41,997 nt of DNA from a virus. The translations under genes and the position numbers were made by a program. The notes beneath the pieces were generated by a model, which saw only the letters and a program-made list of their open reading frames with translations, was not told the DNA's origin and did not search any database. The DNA lies in the IMG/VR virus record IMGVR_UViG_3300005530_000016, positions 1 to 41,997 of that record. One strand, written 5' to 3'. Every line of letters starts with the position of its first letter. Within the stretch, counting starts at the first letter, position 1. Positions 4,191 through 28,641 of the stretch are shown in pieces.

Positions 4191-5413
4191 CACAATTTCA
4201 CATCGTAATCTGTACTATTTCGCACTTCGTCAAAAACTAACTGAGGATGATACAGACATGCTTTTTGTTTTTTTGCGACTGCTTCATATTCTAACGTGTG
4301 TATAATATTACTTAATCGCCAATTTGCATCTCCCATAGTATACAGCCTTAAACCATTATCGAGTCCTGTAATAGGGTCTATCCAATTACCAATATGAACT
4401 TTATCTTTTACCGCATCAAACACTTTTTTATCTTCAACCATAATTACGAAGTGTTTAGGCTTGAGAGAATAATCGTGGATTCGTAATAAAGCATCTACGG
4501 CTTGGGGCAAGGATGTAATTTCAAGAACAGGTCCAGTCCAACATTCTTTTACTAATTGCGTCTCTAACTCAGGATGATAAAGACCCAAAGTCCATTCTTC
4601 CTCACTTGCTACTTCCCACATTAAATCACCAATCCATTTTGTTAATTTAATTTTGTCATTGAAAGAATCTACCAAGCCTGCGTCAATGCCCTGTGAATTT
4701 AATGTGTATCCCAAATGGACATTGTAACTTTCTCTTAGTTCGTTAATTTCTTCTTGACTACATTTTAAAACCAAAATTGTTTCATCGCCATTAGGAGGAC
4801 AGAAAAACTTTTTAGGATTGGTACGATAATTGATGTTTGAGAGAGAATGGGATTGACCACACAAAAAAGGGTCAGGAGCATAAATCTTGAATTTTTTTTG
4901 AACCTCACCCACATGCCAATCACAATGACTATCCACCCTTTGCCACAAATCCAACAGTGCCTTCATATAAGCTCTATTGGCCGAGTAACTGTGAGTACGC
5001 TGCGTATTAGTACAACGCACGACATGCTTATTGATTCTTACTGGTGCTGAAATATGCTGACCGCCTAAACAAACACCATCGAAACGAACGCCATCCGCAT
5101 CTTCTGGCAAATTTTCCAAAAATTCAGCATACTTCACTCTAAAATTGCTTCTAAAACATGCATCGTCCTCGAATACTAAAATGTTCTGCACGTCATCGTT
5201 TAATGCTTCAGCGAGGACTGTACAATGAGAACGAGCGCAACACGCAGCCGGTCCTCCCTCTGTAAACCATTCAGGACAGCCCAGCTTATTGTGGTCGTAG
5301 GCGTTAAAGCGTTTTATATTTTCAAAATCTGTTTTTTTAATTTCGTCATTAAACTCGCGCCATCTATCAGGTCTGCGCAATAAATTGATGCATACAATAC
5401 GGTCAAATTTCAT
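4139..5413 (-). CDS. GT25-like glycosyltransferase with extra C-terminal domain
   Basis: 424 residues. CINLLRRPDRW (8-18), the Cys/His segment PAACCARSHCTVL (about 55-67) and ILVFEDDACF (78-87) match glycosyltransferase family 25 (LPS/procollagen galactosyltransferase-like), which uses the EDD motif for metal and nucleotide-sugar binding. Residues beyond about 235 form an additional domain I cannot assign. AGGAAGG lies just upstream of the ATG at 5413, which overlaps the previous stop by 4 bases. The last 17 codons overlap the HNH gene on the other strand. A virion or host-surface acceptor is inferred. Confidence 0.8.
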   Translation of the reverse strand: MKFDRIVCINLLRRPDRWREFNDEIKKTDFENIKRFNAYDHNKLGCPEWFTEGGPAACCARSHCTVLAEALNDDVQNILVFEDDACFRSNFRVKYAEFLENLPEDADGVRFDGVCLGGQHISAPVRINKHVVRCTNTQRTHSYSANRAYMKALLDLWQRVDSHCDWHVGEVQKKFKIYAPDPFLCGQSHSLSNINYRTNPKKFFCPPNGDETILVLKCSQEEINELRESYNVHLGYTLNSQGIDAGLVDSFNDKIKLTKWIGDLMWEVASEEEWTLGLYHPELETQLVKECWTGPVLEITSLPQAVDALLRIHDYSLKPKHFVIMVEDKKVFDAVKDKVHIGNWIDPITGLDNGLRLYTMGDANWRLSNIIHTLEYEAVAKKQKACLYHPQLVFDEVRNSTDYDVKLCHTVEEVEDLLKPPVAS

Positions 5414-5610
5414 TTTACCTTCCTATTGCCGCCTCCACAACCACAACCTTTTTTTGGCTCAACAACAGTATTATCAGCAGGTCGTGGTTGTCCTTCCCAA
5501 AGTTTGTAATATCGGTCGTCGTTAAACCAAAGCCAACAAATGCGACACTCCCCTTCTACGTAAGGTTGACCCGGTACTAAAACGTCTGGGTGATTACAAG
5601 GTCGTGGCAT
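5410..5610 (-). CDS. Small Cys-rich, zinc-ribbon-like protein
   Basis: 66 residues from the ATG at 5610 (MPRPCNHPDVL...). One Cys-His pair, then CRIC, then a GCGCGGG motif near the C-terminus, suggest metal binding. There is no Shine-Dalgarno sequence; ACTATTATATTATT precedes the ATG, almost identical to the sequence before the chaperone gene at 15956. It lies between a Cys-rich adhesin gene and the GT25-like gene. A similar Cys-rich mini-protein is encoded at 8340. Function unknown. Confidence 0.65.
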   Translation of the reverse strand: MPRPCNHPDVLVPGQPYVEGECRICWLWFNDDRYYKLWEGQPRPADNTVVEPKKGCGCGGGNRKVK

Positions 5611-5623
5611 AATAATATAATAG

Positions 5624-6163
5624 TTAACCTGCGACGATACCCACAGTGCCAACACCACCATTGCACCCAGTTAGGTCCACATTATTAAAGGTCATCGACA
5701 AGGGATTACACTGTATAGGTTGGACTGGAAAATAATTGGACACGTTATTTGCAATATTAAGCCTCCATGCACCAACCTGAGCATCGCAAGTTAAAGAGAC
5801 GGTAAATAAAACATTGCCACCAAAACGCCCAATTCCACCACAAGCACAAGTTCCTACAGTTTGACAAGTTTTCCAAGCATTAACGCCGTCAAAGGTTAAA
5901 GTAACTGAAACATCAATTGCACCTGCTAGAATATTGCAGGTTAAACTAAATGGTATTAGCACTCCAGGGCAAATTGAACAACTTACGCCGCCTTGACTAC
6001 CAGAAGAAGAACTTAACGAACTAGAACTACTTCCTTCAACAAACTGACCACAATTTAGCTGGCACTCTTTTTCATTATCATAGCCTCCTGAAACTAAAGT
6101 ATAACCTGCTGCTAAAAATGCGCTTAATTCGTCAACTGTGAGGAAAAAACATTGTTGTGTCAT
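5624..6163 (-). CDS. Ser-linker Cys-rich virion/adhesin protein
   Basis: 179 residues: a short N-terminal segment (MTQQCFFLTVDELSAFLAAGYTL), a Ser-rich linker near 45-58, and a beta-rich C-terminal domain with regularly placed Cys (C...W..C..C.C...F.VSLTC...VGAWRLN...CNPLSMTF....C.G). The same C-terminal domain occurs in the upstream gene 6899-6165, so these are paralogous domains. GGAG precedes the ATG. A receptor-binding or decoration role is inferred from position among tail genes; the Ser linkers are possible glycosylation targets. Confidence 0.65.
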   Translation of the reverse strand: MTQQCFFLTVDELSAFLAAGYTLVSGGYDNEKECQLNCGQFVEGSSSSSLSSSSGSQGGVSCSICPGVLIPFSLTCNILAGAIDVSVTLTFDGVNAWKTCQTVGTCACGGIGRFGGNVLFTVSLTCDAQVGAWRLNIANNVSNYFPVQPIQCNPLSMTFNNVDLTGCNGGVGTVGIVAG

Positions 6164-19901: not shown

Positions 19902-20288
19902 TTATCTTTTACCTATTACAACCAATACACGACCTAAACCTAAGCCTGTCATAGTGGTTAACGCCCTAGCACCATAAAAATCGCCAGAGGTTGCTGTTAC
20001 ACCATTACCATTTAAATCTGGCTTCAACCAATCTCCAGCAGTCCATCCTGCGGACGTAGCATTTAATAGTGTAACCTCATTAGGCGTATAAACCATAATA
20101 GGGTCATTAACGTCAGCCGCTTCGGAAGTAGCACCCGGAATTGGGGCGAGTTTAGAATATTGTGAGCTAACGCCAATTGGTTGGTCGCCGCTCACCGATT
20201 GATTAACTGTGTTGTCAACACTTGTGGAAGGTGTTACGAAGACGCTGGTGTTGATTGTTCCACCAGCTTGAAAATTTGCACGAGCCAT
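19902..20288 (-). CDS. Head decoration / capsid cement protein
   Basis: 128 residues, start at 20288 behind GGGAGG, overlapping the scaffold stop by 1 base. Beta-rich with a flexible Thr/Ser N-terminus, an LLNATSAGWTAGDWLKPDLN segment and a Gly-rich end, in line with DUF2190-type or lambda gpD-type decoration proteins that sit between scaffold and capsid genes. The call rests mostly on position, size and composition. Confidence 0.6.
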   Translation of the reverse strand: MARANFQAGGTINTSVFVTPSTSVDNTVNQSVSGDQPIGVSSQYSKLAPIPGATSEAADVNDPIMVYTPNEVTLLNATSAGWTAGDWLKPDLNGNGVTATSGDFYGARALTTMTGLGLGRVLVVIGKR

Positions 20289-20908
20289 TATTTACCTCCC
20301 TTACTGTTCACTTTTTCATAAGTCTTAAGCATTAAGTCATAAGGGTTATCTTGGGTCTCAGCGTCTTTTCTTTCTGCTGGAACAATATGAACACCAATTG
20401 GTGCGCGAGAATAACGCTTACGCATTTTTTCAACATGCTTTGTATAATTTTTCGCATCCAGGTCGGCAACCGTTTCAAGTTCTTCCGCGAGTTCAAAAAC
20501 AATGCCCTCTTGTTCAAGTCCAAGCAAATCTGCACGTCGGTCGGCAATGCGTTCCTTACGTTCAAGAGTTGCAACTTGGGATTTAAGAGTCTTGTGTTCT
20601 TCAGCTAATTTGGAGTAACGACGAAGCGATTGGTCGTACTGGTAGCGTAACTTTGCTGGCGACAATTCTTCCTCCTCTTTAGGGTCATGACGTTCGCCAT
20701 CCTTTAGTTCATCTTTTTCATCTTCACGTTCATGTTCCGTTTCATCTTTCTCGTAAACATCAACGTGTTCTTTATCGTGTTCACCATCCACGCCATCCTT
20801 TTCATAACTTTCCTTTTTGTGTTGTTCAACCAACTCGCGAAGGTAAGCCATCTCAGGTAAAGCCTGAATTGCTTCGACACAACTTTTTAACATTTCTTCT
20901 GGAGTCAT
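20288..20908 (-). CDS. Internal start: scaffold protein
   Basis: Inside the protease/scaffold gene, an in-frame ATG at 20908 (MTPEEMLKSCVEAIQ) is preceded at 8 bases by AGGAG, a good ribosome site. The resulting 206-residue protein is highly charged and helical (repeated Glu/Asp/Lys/His, then YDQSLRRYSKLAEEHKTLKS coiled coil), as scaffolding proteins are. Making scaffold from an internal start of the protease gene is the known plan in lambda (C/Nu3) and Mu (I/Z). Confidence 0.65.
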   Translation of the reverse strand: MTPEEMLKSCVEAIQALPEMAYLRELVEQHKKESYEKDGVDGEHDKEHVDVYEKDETEHEREDEKDELKDGERHDPKEEEELSPAKLRYQYDQSLRRYSKLAEEHKTLKSQVATLERKERIADRRADLLGLEQEGIVFELAEELETVADLDAKNYTKHVEKMRKRYSRAPIGVHIVPAERKDAETQDNPYDLMLKTYEKVNSKGGK

Positions 20909-21598
20909 GTGTTTTTCTCCTACTGTCTTGGAGTATCTATACTTTTTGCTTTGATTTTTTCCTAGCATTCCTAAATCTCGTAGTGGTCTGACGGCACCCA
21001 ATATTGCTATACTGTCAATGGGTATCTTCTCACTAACCAATACAACAGGGTCCACTACACCGTCATCCCATAACTCAATACTCTTGCGATAAAACTTGTA
21101 TTCTGGCTTCCATAATTCCCTGGGAATGTGTAAGGTCGAATAAATAGCTGTCCTATCCTCAAAGGGTTCTACTCCGAATTCGTCCGCCACACCTACAACA
21201 TCAGGTTGTTTATCGTCGGGATTATCGGAAGTATGTCCCAAAGTAATAGGACTTAAATCATCACTTTCAGCAATTCTTTTATTACAAGCTTCCGCAATCG
21301 TCCTTAATCTTGCTTCGTCAAAAACTTCACCATCTTCGTCTACATGTTCATCAAAAATAGGTGTGCGAATATTAATATAATCTTCATCGCTATATCTCTT
21401 CTTACCTTCAATGGTCGCTACGGAAGTGTTGGTGCCGCCAGGAGTGGAAACTTGTCCCGACGAAGGTGCAGCATTCTTTTTTTTTCTTTTTAGGTTCAGA
21501 CTGATAGCCACGGCTTGTTTCTGTGGATAACCTTCACCAGTTAATTTCTTTATGTTTTTTCCTACTGCTTCTTTAGAACCTGACTTATCCAGTGGCAT
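20288..21598 (-). CDS. Capsid maturation protease/scaffold (Mu gpI-like)
   Basis: 436 residues. 1-40: SGSKEAVGKNIKKLTGEGYPQKQA, a small basic domain seen at the N-terminus of phage proteins. About 65-215: protease-like region (IRTPIFDEHVDEDGEVFDEARL ... SPITLGHTSDNPD ... GVADEFGVEP ... YKFYRKSIELWDDGVV), with GHT and the later Ser as candidate catalytic residues by analogy with Mu gpI. 230-436: charged scaffold coil with its own internal start. The start at 21598 follows TAGGAGTAACG. Flanked by portal and capsid genes; cleaved and lost during head maturation, if the analogy holds. Confidence 0.65.
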   Translation of the reverse strand: MPLDKSGSKEAVGKNIKKLTGEGYPQKQAVAISLNLKRKKKNAAPSSGQVSTPGGTNTSVATIEGKKRYSDEDYINIRTPIFDEHVDEDGEVFDEARLRTIAEACNKRIAESDDLSPITLGHTSDNPDDKQPDVVGVADEFGVEPFEDRTAIYSTLHIPRELWKPEYKFYRKSIELWDDGVVDPVVLVSEKIPIDSIAILGAVRPLRDLGMLGKNQSKKYRYSKTVGEKHMTPEEMLKSCVEAIQALPEMAYLRELVEQHKKESYEKDGVDGEHDKEHVDVYEKDETEHEREDEKDELKDGERHDPKEEEELSPAKLRYQYDQSLRRYSKLAEEHKTLKSQVATLERKERIADRRADLLGLEQEGIVFELAEELETVADLDAKNYTKHVEKMRKRYSRAPIGVHIVPAERKDAETQDNPYDLMLKTYEKVNSKGGK

Positions 21599-22466: not shown

Positions 22467-22682
22467 TTAGAGTAAGGGTTCACTATAATGCGAAAGAGTT
22501 AATTGTGTAATTTCTCCATTATACAAATCACTCAGCCATTCCTTAGTGTCTTCGTCGTCGAAATCAACTTGGAATAATTCATCAGGTGTGCCAAAACCCG
22601 AATCGTAACACCAAGCCAATCCATACTTGTCAACTAAATCTGCATACTCCTTCAGAAAATCTTTTTTTAATTTATTCATCAT
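22467..22682 (-). CDS. Small acidic protein after the portal
   Basis: 71 residues (or 70 from the second ATG at 22679): N-terminal basic helix KLKKDFLKEYADLVDKYGLAW, then acidic (FQVDFDDEDTKEWLSDL). Its start overlaps the portal stop by 11 bases, implying coupling. No family is recognised. Confidence 0.55.
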   Translation of the reverse strand: MMNKLKKDFLKEYADLVDKYGLAWCYDSGFGTPDELFQVDFDDEDTKEWLSDLYNGEITQLTLSHYSEPLL

Positions 22683-24309
22683 TATCTTTTTCTTTGTTTT
22701 CTTTATTAGGGTTCATCGAGAAATTAAAAGCTTGCTGTGCCATTTTGCTTAAAACCTTGTCACCCTGTTGTGGCTGATTCAAACCCAAAACACTCCTGAC
22801 CTGTTCCTCATCCAAATCAGCACCCATTTCAAACGCATTTTTAGCCGCGCTCATCCATTCCATTGGGTCGTTCTTGTCAACTACCAACTTATAAGTACAG
22901 TAAAATCTCGTTTCAGGGAATGTCCACTTTTGAATAACACTAACCAAATCTCGCGTAATCGTTTCCTGTAAATTAATAGCATCGAACTTTACAATACGAT
23001 GGAAAGTTTCTCCATGTTGTTGACCTACACCACTATTCATGCCAGAAGTAGTAGGATGTGAAGTTGCATCTTGACCCTGAATGTAACGGCGAATCTGTCC
23101 ACCAAAATAATCATCCAAGACCTTCAATAAGTTATCAACACCCACTGGACTTGGTTCAATCCTTTCAATATCCTCAGTGCTTTTTGGGTCGCTGGGGTCT
23201 TTCGGGAATAGTAAAACACCTTGGAACGATTCACTCTCTGCAATAGCTTTAGCAGCATTATAACTCTCTGAATTATTACGAATATAACGTATAATGGTTA
23301 ATCCCGTTCCAATACGTTCCATTAACTCAATTAACCAACCCGTCAATTCGTTCTGTAAATACCATGTCCAATATAATACTGACCTAATTCCAAGACCCTT
23401 TACTCCACCTGCGGACTCTGCTTCAAAGAAATCACCAGGCATCAATTCGTGCTGATGTAGAACCAAAGCTTCTCGTTCGTGGAAAGCTAACTGACGAATA
23501 CCTCCTTCCATGCCCGTATCGCCTAAAACGTGTGCCCTGCTGACATCTGTAGGTTGAGTGCTTAGTTTCTTGGTTCCTTGTGCGCCTGTGAAGATACCAA
23601 CCAAAATACCTACATCTTCGGAAGTGTATTTAAATTCCAAAGAGTCACCTTGCACTGGAGTCCAATCCTTAACCATCAATCGCTTAAAAGATTTTCGCCA
23701 GTCCCAATAAAAGTTATTAATGACAGCAAAACGACCAAACCAAATAGCATAAAGTAAAGCATATTTGTATTTTAAGAAATAAGGAACGCAATCAATGATA
23801 TTTTGAATTTCACTGGCTACCTTTAATTGTTCGGGGTCAGTTTTATCCTCTGGCTCTACATGTCCTTCTAATTCTGCCGTAGCTAACATTCTTGCCTGTA
23901 ATGGTGTACGAATGCTTAAATTACGCATCATGTTTCGCGCATTGGTACGAGAGTTTCTTATAGCTTCGTCAGGATTTAAATAGAAGTGACGAAAAGCGTT
24001 AATTAGACCAGCATATTGTTGGGCGGCTGGTACGATGATTGTTCCACCACCAGGAGGGATTTTATATTCTAAAAAATTACCTGTAGGCGTTTCTTTAATA
24101 GTGGAAATATTATTTAAAAAAGGACTTTCATTTAAAAAGTTATTGCCTCTATCAAAGGGCGTATTCATGGGATTAGCTGGCATGGCATAGCGTTTACGTC
24201 CGCCAGGCGTTTTATCGGCTGTTAATTTGCCAGATTTTTCCCACCTTGTGATGGTACTTGCAGACACTTTAAAGTGTGTCGCTGCTTCTTTTTTGCTCCA
24301 GTTTGACAT
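22672..24309 (-). CDS. Portal protein (DUF935-like) with N-terminal MerR-type HTH
   Basis: 545 residues. Residues 1-45 (WSKKEAATHFKVSASTITRW then TADKTPGGRKRY) are a textbook MerR/excisionase helix-turn-helix with its wing. From about 100 on the protein resembles DUF935 (Mu gp29-type) portals: RMLATAELEGHVEP, YALLYAIWFGRFAVI, HQHELMPGDFFEAE, LYWTWYLQNELTGWLIELMERIG, DDYFGGQIRRYIQGQDATS, then a helical tail. The two parts are in one uninterrupted frame. ACTAACTA lies 4 bases before the ATG with no Shine-Dalgarno sequence. A portal beginning with a DNA-binding domain is unexpected; it might touch packaged DNA or double as a regulator. Confidence 0.75.
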   Translation of the reverse strand: MSNWSKKEAATHFKVSASTITRWEKSGKLTADKTPGGRKRYAMPANPMNTPFDRGNNFLNESPFLNNISTIKETPTGNFLEYKIPPGGGTIIVPAAQQYAGLINAFRHFYLNPDEAIRNSRTNARNMMRNLSIRTPLQARMLATAELEGHVEPEDKTDPEQLKVASEIQNIIDCVPYFLKYKYALLYAIWFGRFAVINNFYWDWRKSFKRLMVKDWTPVQGDSLEFKYTSEDVGILVGIFTGAQGTKKLSTQPTDVSRAHVLGDTGMEGGIRQLAFHEREALVLHQHELMPGDFFEAESAGGVKGLGIRSVLYWTWYLQNELTGWLIELMERIGTGLTIIRYIRNNSESYNAAKAIAESESFQGVLLFPKDPSDPKSTEDIERIEPSPVGVDNLLKVLDDYFGGQIRRYIQGQDATSHPTTSGMNSGVGQQHGETFHRIVKFDAINLQETITRDLVSVIQKWTFPETRFYCTYKLVVDKNDPMEWMSAAKNAFEMGADLDEEQVRSVLGLNQPQQGDKVLSKMAQQAFNFSMNPNKENKEKDNDE

Positions 24310-24313
24310 GTAA

Positions 24314-24321
24314 TAGTTAGT
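24314..24321 (-). promoter_or_regulatory. Candidate late promoter motif (ACTAACTA)
   Basis: Leftward ACTAACTATTAC directly before the portal ATG; compare ACTAAATATTAC before the connector gene. One mismatch from the family consensus. Confidence 0.4.
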
Positions 24322-24343
24322 TTTGCACTATGATAATTATACC

Positions 24344-25393
24344 ATGAATAAAAATAGCAAGAAAAGATTCTTTTTCCAAACAGAAGACATGTTAGGGCAG
24401 TCTTTTTATCGTTCTCTCCTACCTGGTGGTCACTTACAGGAAGACGGAGTAGCTGATATTGACCTCTATTCCACTCCCAATGATTTTAATTACGATGGCT
24501 ACGTTTACCATCGGTTAGTCAGTCCTGGTCAATTGAATGTAATCGAAATGGAAAGAATGAAAGGTAAAATCATCCTCTGGGAGACGGATGATGACATTTT
24601 TCACGTTCCTCATTGGAATCCTTGTGCGCCACAATATAACCGCTTTGAAAATCAGTCCATGAACAAATATATGGCTGAATGTTCATCACATATCATGGTG
24701 TCTACTAATTATCTGAAAAGCGTGATTGTTAGTGAAACGGGCGTCAATGGAGATAAGATTGTTGTATTACCTAATTTCCTCGATACTGAAGCATGGCCCA
24801 AACCAGCTAAAGACCATGATAAGATTCGACTCCTATGGGCTGGTAGTGGTTGTCATCTTCGCGACCTTGACCAGCTAGTAACACCATTAGAGCGAATTCT
24901 TGATGAATATGGCGACCAAATTCAAATAATCTTTATGGGCGACATTCCTGAAGGTATGTGCGAATATGTCAGAATTCAAGGTAATACATTTGGTTTTGCA
25001 GTTCCAGCCAAACGTTACAAAGGTCGTGTTGGTTACGTGCCACCTGTAACCGTTAGCGAATATGCCCAAACTTTATCTGATTTGGACTGTGATATTGCTT
25101 TTTGTCCTTTAACTGACGAACCCTTTAATCGTAGCAAAAGTAACTTGAAACAGTTGGAATATACGATGGCTGGTTGTACTTGCATTTGTACTGACCTGGA
25201 ACCCTATCATGACTTTCCTTGCTTATTAGTTAAACCAGGTGATGGCGAAGGTTGGTATAACGCCACCAAAACACTAATTGATAATGTTGCTAAGCGTGAC
25301 GATTTGTATACTAATGCCAGGGCTATGGTTGAGAGTAAGTATAGTTGGCGGGGAGTTGGTCAGGATTGGAAGAGATTTTTTGAATCTTTATGA
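24344..25393 (+). CDS. GT-B fold glycosyltransferase (GT4-like)
   Basis: 349 residues from the ATG at 24344. The C-terminal half has the GT4 layout: IVVLPNFLD, IRLLWAGSGCHLRDL at the start of the second Rossmann domain, IIFMGDIPEG, then NRSKSNLKQLEYTMAGCTCICTDLEPY, where the E lies in the nucleotide-sugar pocket region, and SWRGVGQDWKRFF at the end. The first domain has the W.TDDDIFHVP segment. It is divergent from the portal and heads a five-gene operon with the candidate anti-defence gene. Target glycan unknown; virion glycosylation is one option. Confidence 0.75.
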   Translation: MNKNSKKRFFFQTEDMLGQSFYRSLLPGGHLQEDGVADIDLYSTPNDFNYDGYVYHRLVSPGQLNVIEMERMKGKIILWETDDDIFHVPHWNPCAPQYNRFENQSMNKYMAECSSHIMVSTNYLKSVIVSETGVNGDKIVVLPNFLDTEAWPKPAKDHDKIRLLWAGSGCHLRDLDQLVTPLERILDEYGDQIQIIFMGDIPEGMCEYVRIQGNTFGFAVPAKRYKGRVGYVPPVTVSEYAQTLSDLDCDIAFCPLTDEPFNRSKSNLKQLEYTMAGCTCICTDLEPYHDFPCLLVKPGDGEGWYNATKTLIDNVAKRDDLYTNARAMVESKYSWRGVGQDWKRFFESL

Positions 25394-26285: not shown

Positions 26286-26470
26286 ATATAGAATCACGCC
26301 TTAAACAATATCGACGAGCCAAACACAAATTAGCATGGGAGAAACTTCATAGACCGCACAGTTGGAACGCAGAACGTCGTCATATCATTACAATAGTTAA
26401 CAAATTGTGCCAGAATGATAAGAAACGAAAAATGCTTTTAACGGTGGTAGAGGAAATGAATAATCAATAA
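26282..26470 (+). CDS. 62-residue basic protein
   Basis: MNIESRLKQYRRAKHKLAWEKLH..., Arg/Lys/His-rich and helical. Coupled by ATGA overlap to the Acb2-like gene and convergent with the terminase gene (7-base overlap). No family is recognised; its coupling suggests a role together with the Acb2-like protein. Confidence 0.55.
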   Translation: MNIESRLKQYRRAKHKLAWEKLHRPHSWNAERRHIITIVNKLCQNDKKRKMLLTVVEEMNNQ

Positions 26471-27849
26471 GGACAACGATTTTTCTTTTCTATCTTCTTA
26501 ATTGGTTCTAAGCGTTGAGTTGTGAGAACTTTTTGTGAATGGCAGAGATATCTTAAACAATCCGTGAGGTCTTGTGGGCGTTGTTCGCTTTCTCTTACAG
26601 GTTCGCCATACCGTTTCTTATCATACGTATAAAAACGTATTTGGCTAATCAATTGTTGACATGTATTAAAAATCTGTAACATGGGACGGTCATCAGTTCC
26701 TTTTGCCATCAAGGTTCTTACACTGGCATGACCTGCTTCCACATCCTTAATGGCATTAGTATAATTAAAATTTCGTATGCGAAATTCATTTAAAATTGCA
26801 GCATTGGCAGGGTCAGCGTATGTGTTTCCTTTCACTAATACTTCTTGCCAATCGTCGTTTATTTCCTTAATGTGTTCTTCGACGCTGGTTTTGTTTTTGT
26901 TATATTCACGGTAAATGTAATAACGACCTTGTAAATCAATTGCCGCCCATAAACAAGCGGTGCTGTGAACGTGTCCTGTATCAAATCCTCTTATCCTCAT
27001 CCAATTCTTGTTTATCTCAAAAGGTTCTATGACATGTTCCTTACCGAATGAATTATAGATTAAACCTTCATAAACAGCAAAAGCACCTGTCAGACGAGTT
27101 TCAATTAGTTCGGGAGTTTCGGCTTTTTCTATATTTTTAATAAACTCTGGGTCAAGAGTTTTATTACAACGGGTATTCATGCGTAAGAAAAGATAAAGCG
27201 GGTTTTTCTCTTCAAATAACTTTTCCAGCGTTAAGTCCGGTTCGACCGGAGTAAGCGTGTATAATTGTAGCGGGGCTGACCATTTACGAGTTCGTCCGAT
27301 TAATTCGGTTATAATACTCATGTCCCTTACTTGTTCATCACACCACCATCCTCGAATGCTACGTGCCTGTAATGCGCTTCTACCCTGGTCATAACTCTTT
27401 AATTCAATCACGTAATTGTTGCCGTTAGCATGAGGTTTTAATATGACTTTTTTTGGTAATTGTGCTAGTTCGCTGTACCAAGAAACGCCTTCAATTTGGT
27501 CAGGTGTAATAAAGTTGGCTAAGTTTTGTTGCCATAGGCTTTCTGTCACCATTGGCATTGTTTCGCTGAGAATCCAAAAAGGTGTATTCTTTTCGGGTGG
27601 TGGAGTATCTTTTAAATATTTGGCTACTTTAGCTGCGCCGACGTATGATTTGCCGGCACCCGTTCCCGCTAAACAACAAATAATACCATTGTGAGTTGCA
27701 TTAAAAAATTTTGTTTGTTGGTCGAGTTGCGCATCGTCATCTAATCGGGGTTCAAAAAGATTTAAAGGCGTTGCCAATTGTTTTGCTAATTGTAACGCCT
27801 TAAAGTTTTTAGATTGAATTGCACGTTTTAATAATTCACGCATTGGCAT
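26464..27849 (-). CDS. terL: Terminase large subunit
   Basis: 461 residues from the ATG at 27849. Walker A at 61-68 (AGTGAGKS), Walker B at about 167-172 (GWWCDE), a C-motif-like TLTP at 198-201, and an RNase H-like nuclease with Asp at 290 (RGFDTGHVHST), 346 (TYADPAN) and about 427-430 (DLTD). It packages DNA by ATP hydrolysis and cuts concatemers. The start lies inside the end of the coiled-coil gene. Comparing the ATPase and nuclease with headful and cos groups would show the packaging mode. Confidence 0.9.
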   Translation of the reverse strand: MPMRELLKRAIQSKNFKALQLAKQLATPLNLFEPRLDDDAQLDQQTKFFNATHNGIICCLAGTGAGKSYVGAAKVAKYLKDTPPPEKNTPFWILSETMPMVTESLWQQNLANFITPDQIEGVSWYSELAQLPKKVILKPHANGNNYVIELKSYDQGRSALQARSIRGWWCDEQVRDMSIITELIGRTRKWSAPLQLYTLTPVEPDLTLEKLFEEKNPLYLFLRMNTRCNKTLDPEFIKNIEKAETPELIETRLTGAFAVYEGLIYNSFGKEHVIEPFEINKNWMRIRGFDTGHVHSTACLWAAIDLQGRYYIYREYNKNKTSVEEHIKEINDDWQEVLVKGNTYADPANAAILNEFRIRNFNYTNAIKDVEAGHASVRTLMAKGTDDRPMLQIFNTCQQLISQIRFYTYDKKRYGEPVRESEQRPQDLTDCLRYLCHSQKVLTTQRLEPIKKIEKKNRCPY

Positions 27850-28048
27850 TTTCAAGAGCCACTTCTCTTATTCCCCTTACTTCAAGCAACATTTGATATG
27901 CCTGTTCGTAACCTTGGTAGGCAATTTCTTCCTGACGAGTTATTTCTTCACGTAATTTGATATTTTCAGCTTGAAGTTCCGTTAACATGGACTGTAATTT
28001 CTCGATAAGCCAGTCTTTCACTTCAATTGTTTCGGTCACTTGCATCAT
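27836..28048 (-). CDS. Small coiled-coil protein between terminase genes
   Basis: 70 residues from the ATG at 28048 with GAGG upstream: a heptad-like helix, WLIEKLQSMLTELQAENIKL and onward. It overlaps both the preceding small gene (stop 28023) and terL. It may assist the terminase complex, but this is inferred from position only. Confidence 0.55.
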   Translation of the reverse strand: MMQVTETIEVKDWLIEKLQSMLTELQAENIKLREEITRQEEIAYQGYEQAYQMLLEVRGIREVALENANA

Positions 28049-28235
28049 ACACCTCAAGATAAAATAAGCCCTTATCTATATTAACTTTCTTTAATTTACA
28101 CTTATAAGGATAAAAACTACCATTAATAAAGCACAATAAGGCGTCTCCTAAATAATCTTTCTCAACAATAATAATGCCTGGATGGATATCAATAATGTAA
28201 CCATCATGACACTTTTCAAGCTTTAATATCCTCAT
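28023..28235 (-). CDS. 70-residue strand-rich protein
   Basis: MRILKLEKCHDGYIIDIHPG then VEKDYLGDALLCFINGSFYP; likely a small beta barrel. The start at 28235 overlaps the end of the small terminase gene by 20 bases in another frame and has no Shine-Dalgarno sequence, so translation is probably coupled. A longer frame to 28376 only shadows terS. Confidence 0.5.
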   Translation of the reverse strand: MRILKLEKCHDGYIIDIHPGIIIVEKDYLGDALLCFINGSFYPYKCKLKKVNIDKGLFYLEVYDASDRNN

Positions 28236-28641
28236 AGTTAAGCAGTTTTTGTAATTCCTCAGTAACTTCTTCTTCGGACTGTTGTTGCATAATTTCAATT
28301 TTCTTTGGTGCTTCCATTCCAGTAATACGGATGATACGGTCGATGGTACTATGCACGACCCTAGCCGCTTTTTCATCCCCTTCCCTCGCCTTGGGCAAAA
28401 ATGCTTTTATAATTTCATATAATTGCTTTAAGGTAATATTAGCCAGCTTTTCAATGGTCGTGTTTTGAATCTCTTCGCGCCAAATTTGATAGGCATGTTC
28501 TACATCTCTACATGAAGTCGAAACATTAACACCAGTAGCAAGCGCAATTTCAGACAAATTATAACCCAGAATCTTCATATCCCATGCTTTCTTTCTTCGC
28601 ATTCGGGTTCGCATTTTTCTTGCTGAATTTTTACTTTCCAC
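28216..28641 (-). CDS. terS: Terminase small subunit (probable)
   Basis: 141 residues, GTG start at 28641 with GAGGC upstream. Basic N-terminus (RKMRTRMRRKKAWDMK), then a helix-turn-helix (LGYNLSEIALATGVNVSTSC) that would bind the packaging site, then helices for oligomerisation and an acidic end that could contact TerL. Size and position upstream of terL fit. It is divergent from the giant adhesin gene with 77 bases between. Confidence 0.7.
   Translation of the reverse strand: MESKNSARKMRTRMRRKKAWDMKILGYNLSEIALATGVNVSTSCRDVEHAYQIWREEIQNTTIEKLANITLKQLYEIIKAFLPKAREGDEKAARVVHSTIDRIIRITGMEAPKKIEIMQQQSEEEVTEELQKLLNYEDIKA

Follow-up and report, generated by a model that had tools for sequence, protein, structure and literature searches.

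The window analysed here, a single virus record of 41,997 bases, derives from an uncultured phage whose closest relatives are found in planctomycetes. Its minus strand carries an open reading frame of 545 amino acids, with an ATG at 24309 and a stop at 22672, in which a short helix-turn-helix (HTH) segment is followed by a phage portal (Table 1). The two parts already share one frame with zero internal stops, while the plus strand at the same coordinates is crowded with stops. This in-frame HTH-portal open reading frame is real in the sequence, and it is one case. The head operon is interrupted between terminase and portal by a glycosyltransferase-like gene that diverges from the portal. A candidate small terminase subunit (TerS), so named from its position and sequence, adjoins the large subunit gene (TerL) and carries an HTH-like stretch of its own.

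Table 1. Features of the portal locus, in window coordinates
Feature	Coordinates	Strand	Evidence or remark
Next head gene, scaffold/protease position	20288-21598	-	
HTH-portal gene, 545 aa, single open frame	22672..24309	-	ORF translation
Residues 85-545: portal core (conserved to ~512; ~85-510) and C-terminal tail	22675..24057	-	PF06074, Foldseek/8RKA
Residues 43-84: leader/linker from Met43, the probable ancestral portal start	24058..24183	-	coding score, leader length
Residues 1-42: MerR/BldC-type HTH and wing, lacking the third helix	24184..24309	-	profiles, BldC 6AMA/6AMK
Perfect 14-bp palindrome	24263-24280		inside HTH codons
34-bp gap to divergent glycosyltransferase gene	24310..24343	.	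no Shine-Dalgarno before portal ATG
Glycosyltransferase-like gene	24323-25393	+	
Large terminase, TerL	26464-27855	-	phrog_2, 5e-26
Small-terminase candidate	28216..28641	-	phrog_645, 5.5e-19

The larger part of the protein is a Mu-type portal. Residues 124-510 match PF06074 (Portal_Mu, DUF935) over profile positions 4-336 of 336 (E 2e-29), and the score of 103 bits stands well above the cut-off of 23.9. This bears out the preliminary description, in which the HTH frame continued into a DUF935-like portal. A structure model built from a 23-sequence alignment reached a pLDDT of about 80-94 in the best parts of the core (an earlier model from two sequences only, at pLDDT 32, was useless). The predicted core matches the portal fold (wing, stem, clip) and resembles the JBD30 portal gp32 (8RKA; Foldseek 5e-13, Z 22.4, 326 residues aligned, rmsd 10.7), the Mu portal gp29 (9KHX/9KNU; Z 20.9), which shares the DUF935/PF06074 family, and the G20c portal (Z 20, rmsd 5). 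The gene also lies where a portal is expected, with terminase, scaffold/protease and capsid genes, and the next head genes and the capsid are syntenic with those of L001 (IMG/VR 3300044653_000072). Residues 1-118 of the model are of low confidence and leave the N-terminus undefined, so neither the fold nor the place of the HTH is predicted directly; no sequence in the alignment is related to the HTH residues, and the fold is thus unconfirmed by prediction.

The HTH segment itself is recognised by profiles well beyond chance. Residues 7-42 match NCBIfam HTH_BldC (E 4e-10), and Pfam MerR is found both in the whole protein (E 4.6e-6) and in the N-terminal 173 amino acids scanned alone (9.5e-7; 29.0 bits, above the cut-off of 28.2). 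Helix 1, the recognition helix and the TPGG-type wing of MerR/BldC-type winged HTH domains are all present, the wing as TPGGRKRY at residues 34-41, as the preliminary description had it (T-P-G-G-x-R-x-Y). The closest solved structure is BldC (6AMA/6AMK, E 2-3e-7). The HTH_BldC score of 39.2 bits falls short of the curated BldC-family cut-off of 77 (NF033787). All HTH profile matches also stop early (MerR_1 38/69, HTH_17 38/51, HTH_BldC 41/49). Since every one ends at or before residue 42, we regard the segment as HTH-like rather than as a complete winged-HTH member. The third helix of the fold (BldC 51-60) has no counterpart here, and MPANPMNTPF (residues 43-52) occupies its place.

BldC, a stand-alone MerR-like HTH protein of 68 residues, offers a residue-by-residue comparison, with DNA-contact positions numbered as in PMC5859096 and mapped through the alignment of the window protein with BldC. 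Six contacts are identical (Thr27, Thr29, Arg30, Trp31, Lys33 and Arg48, corresponding to T19, T21, R22, W23, K25 and R40), and three are altered (Arg47 to K39, His46 to R38 and Lys26 to Ser18). The residues through which BldC molecules meet head to tail are partly kept (Phe21, Val23, Trp31, Thr42, Gly44 and Glu16), whereas two at that interface are changed (Ile40 to Asp32 and Leu43 to Pro35). The window segment thus shares with BldC helices 1-2, the wing and most DNA-contact residues, but differs in its missing third helix, its fusion to a portal and its altered interface. Judged from these residues, the DNA-facing surface is kept in an incomplete fold, which may still bind DNA. Among HTHs encoded by phages, the N-terminal HTH of a cyanophage IS607-family transposase comes closest in coverage and identity (46.5% over 43 residues); in cyanophages that HTH heads a recombinase, whereas here it heads a portal. 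An IS607 insertion was considered and rejected, as the window showed no remnant of a recombinase or of IS607.

Related portals were collected with an alignment built from three members of the subfamily. They came from 25 viral contigs, from 13 genomes belonging to a single planctomycete order and from a later set of 80 viral contigs, some of which were already among the 25. The planctomycete genomes had been chosen as survey centres through a 16S pattern. An initial scan of genomes, for which the portal alignment held two sequences only, had returned nothing, and the terminase used as bait in viral contigs found no relatives. The comparison set comprised 111 portals with an intact core start (63 clusters at 95% identity). 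The MerR-type wing motif was absent from all 111, and Pfam scans of the 63 N-termini (in sets of 30 and 33) gave no HTH except that of the window. Among 50 wider DUF935 portals, none had an HTH-type domain, and no portal-HTH fusion was found in the literature searched. These results agree with the earlier remark that no canonical portal is known to have this architecture. Compared with known phages, the whole portal had no match at 1e-5, and under a lax threshold the matches were confined to distant portals of the Mu-like type and to separate HTH proteins. At the sampled depth, then, the fusion reads as a singleton.

What varies among the relatives is the leader that precedes the conserved "PPxxGxxxxP" core start, both in sequence and in length (the anchor proline follows after a median of 41 aa). 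The L001 portal, about 41% identical to that of the window and encoded in the same head-gene order, lacks the HTH and begins with MARNKNN at the leader. A glycosyltransferase-like gene likewise lies directly upstream of the L001 portal and diverges from it (4753-5793, minus strand). One small leader module, APKGGxRxxGxxYxxGxxLPxRYR-like, recurs in nine clusters by pattern, and a "YLV...GV.EIPGMPPG" leader type occurs in seven. The first of these was seen in L198, L199, L203, L204, L245, L252, L255, L286 and L290. By these comparisons, the N-terminal leader of the subfamily appears to be a hypervariable slot that accepts different small modules. Additions at the other end were seen as well: the portals of L190, L193, L198, L199 and L204 extend into open reading frames of 1231-1848 aa that encode further domains after the portal, among them NUDIX (L190), inorganic pyrophosphatase PF18823 (L198, L199) and a sigma70 region 4-like domain (L193).

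In the window, residues 43-545, read from Met43, already look like a full ordinary portal, which suggests that the HTH was added exactly in front. The distance from Met43 to the anchor Pro94 is 51 aa, inside the range of the relatives. Residues 43-84 score best for coding when read in the portal frame, and the other frames hold many stops; by shuffling, the chance of this stretch being open in the portal frame is 0.022, and that of residues 1-84 together is 0.0026. The single frame, the significant HTH match, the portal core, the hypervariable leader and the HTH-less L001 with the same divergent neighbour all support an in-frame joining. The HTH is most likely an N-terminal accretion in this leader, placed precisely ahead of the probable ancestral start.

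We consider it improbable that the fusion is an artefact of a single metagenome assembly, in which a lost stop codon, a frame error or a chimeric join merged the portal with a small gene encoding an HTH. The independent contig L004 is identical over the capsid gene but ends short of the portal, so that the HTH region is represented in one assembly only. The HTH segment also differs from the leader in GC content (45% versus 29%), and because the other frames hold early stops, a one-base shift past the wing would end the HTH within about ten codons. Yet HTH and portal share a frame in which the leader is open and coding-like, and a sequence error would have to consist of a lost stop or of an indel that happened to align both parts. 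The preliminary description had pointed to a separate HTH gene in relatives as the sign of a local frame error; no relative in the surveyed loci has one beside or before its portal, and the window HTH used as a direct query found nothing significant in any open reading frame there. This removes one argument for a frame error, though the error itself keeps its small probability, since one assembly carries the region. The next head gene gives a further reason to think such joins real in this lineage. It too bears an N-terminal add-on: residues 1-47 of its product match the 52-aa phage protein family phrog_2423 (2.5e-12), with up to 61% identity to phage-encoded proteins, and the add-on is missing from every homologue found in related loci.

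A real fusion need not reach the virion. In the main rival reading, to which we give a considerable, if less than even, chance, translation of the portal found in virions begins at Met43 (or Met48), close to the internal start near residue 50 raised in the preliminary description. The HTH segment would then be a relic or a leader, or would be made only in a minor long form, possibly one that regulates its own divergent promoter region. The portal read from Met43 resembles a complete relative of ordinary length, and the HTH lacks helix 3. A strong Shine-Dalgarno precedes neither start (none at ATG1, a weak one at Met43), whereas good ones precede about half of the window genes checked, the next three head genes among them; the sequence favours neither ATG1 nor Met43. 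Self-regulation would also fit the perfect palindrome ACACTTTAAAGTGT, which may be due to chance, and the mere 34 bp to the divergent gene. However, promoter-like sites near the portal start are not in excess (2 found against 1.9 expected), and an operator search of 24270-24400 reported one 7-nt direct repeat and no separated inverted repeat. As for a relic, the DNA-contact residues and the wing are kept, and the segment is not visibly decayed.

If the HTH is translated with the portal, its likely position bears on its role. Terminase docks at the portal clip, outside the head. In JBD30, by contrast, the wing lies inside the head, and Arg13, Arg18 and Arg146 form a rim on its upper part that contacts the DNA wrapping the portal (PMC11445458). 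The model aligns over residues 112-514 with residues 43-409 of the JBD30 chain, and by a simple offset JBD30 positions 13 and 18 would fall near window residues 82-87, just past the linker. By homology to JBD30, the N-terminus would thus sit within the capsid, on the upper rim of the wing and away from the channel and the terminase side.

This placement disfavours the proposal in the preliminary description that the HTH touches the packaged DNA end or helps TerS to select the packaging site. We consider such a role very unlikely. It draws on a match of the HTH to PHROG 57 (terminase small subunit, 5.4e-5) and on the use of HTH domains by packaging proteins, but the JBD30 N-terminal residues lie away from the clip (PMC11445458), and a separate TerS candidate adjoins TerL in the window, which leaves site selection unsupported. 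A displacement of TerS into the portal was rejected on the same candidate.

Our best functional guess, held tentatively and at somewhat below even probability, is that the HTH, translated from ATG1, serves as an auxiliary contact with DNA at the rim of the wing. A short BldC/MerR-type HTH coding segment would have been joined in frame before Met43, the old start of an ordinary Mu-type portal gene. Translation from ATG1 would give every portal ring HTH units inside the head, tethered to the upper rim of the wing by flexible linkers of about 40 residues. There they may add a low-specificity grip on the DNA that winds about the portal, which JBD30 contacts through Arg13 and Arg18. The role would be to hold or order packaged DNA, not to choose the packaging site. 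This reading is supported by the BldC contact residues, which are mostly kept, and by the JBD30 arginines, which map right after the linker. It is weakened by the occurrence of the fusion in no second genome, by the missing Shine-Dalgarno at ATG1, by the replacement of helix 3, by the change of Lys26 to Ser18 and by the altered Ile40/Leu43 interface. Given the missing third helix and a single known genome, weak or no HTH function is a real possibility.

The JBD30 and Mu portals share the core fold with the window protein but have only about 42 residues ahead of the aligned core, and to our knowledge no HTH domain is found at their N-termini. Portals are usually viewed as DNA channels with no dedicated DNA-binding domain. 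It is conceivable, though we think it unlikely, that this phage has a portal ring with an HTH array facing the packaged genome, which organises or holds DNA around the exit channel. If the HTH is made and lies on the wing rim, a phage would be able to decorate its portal with a DNA-binding module, and the role of portal-wrapped DNA would become testable by a simple deletion.
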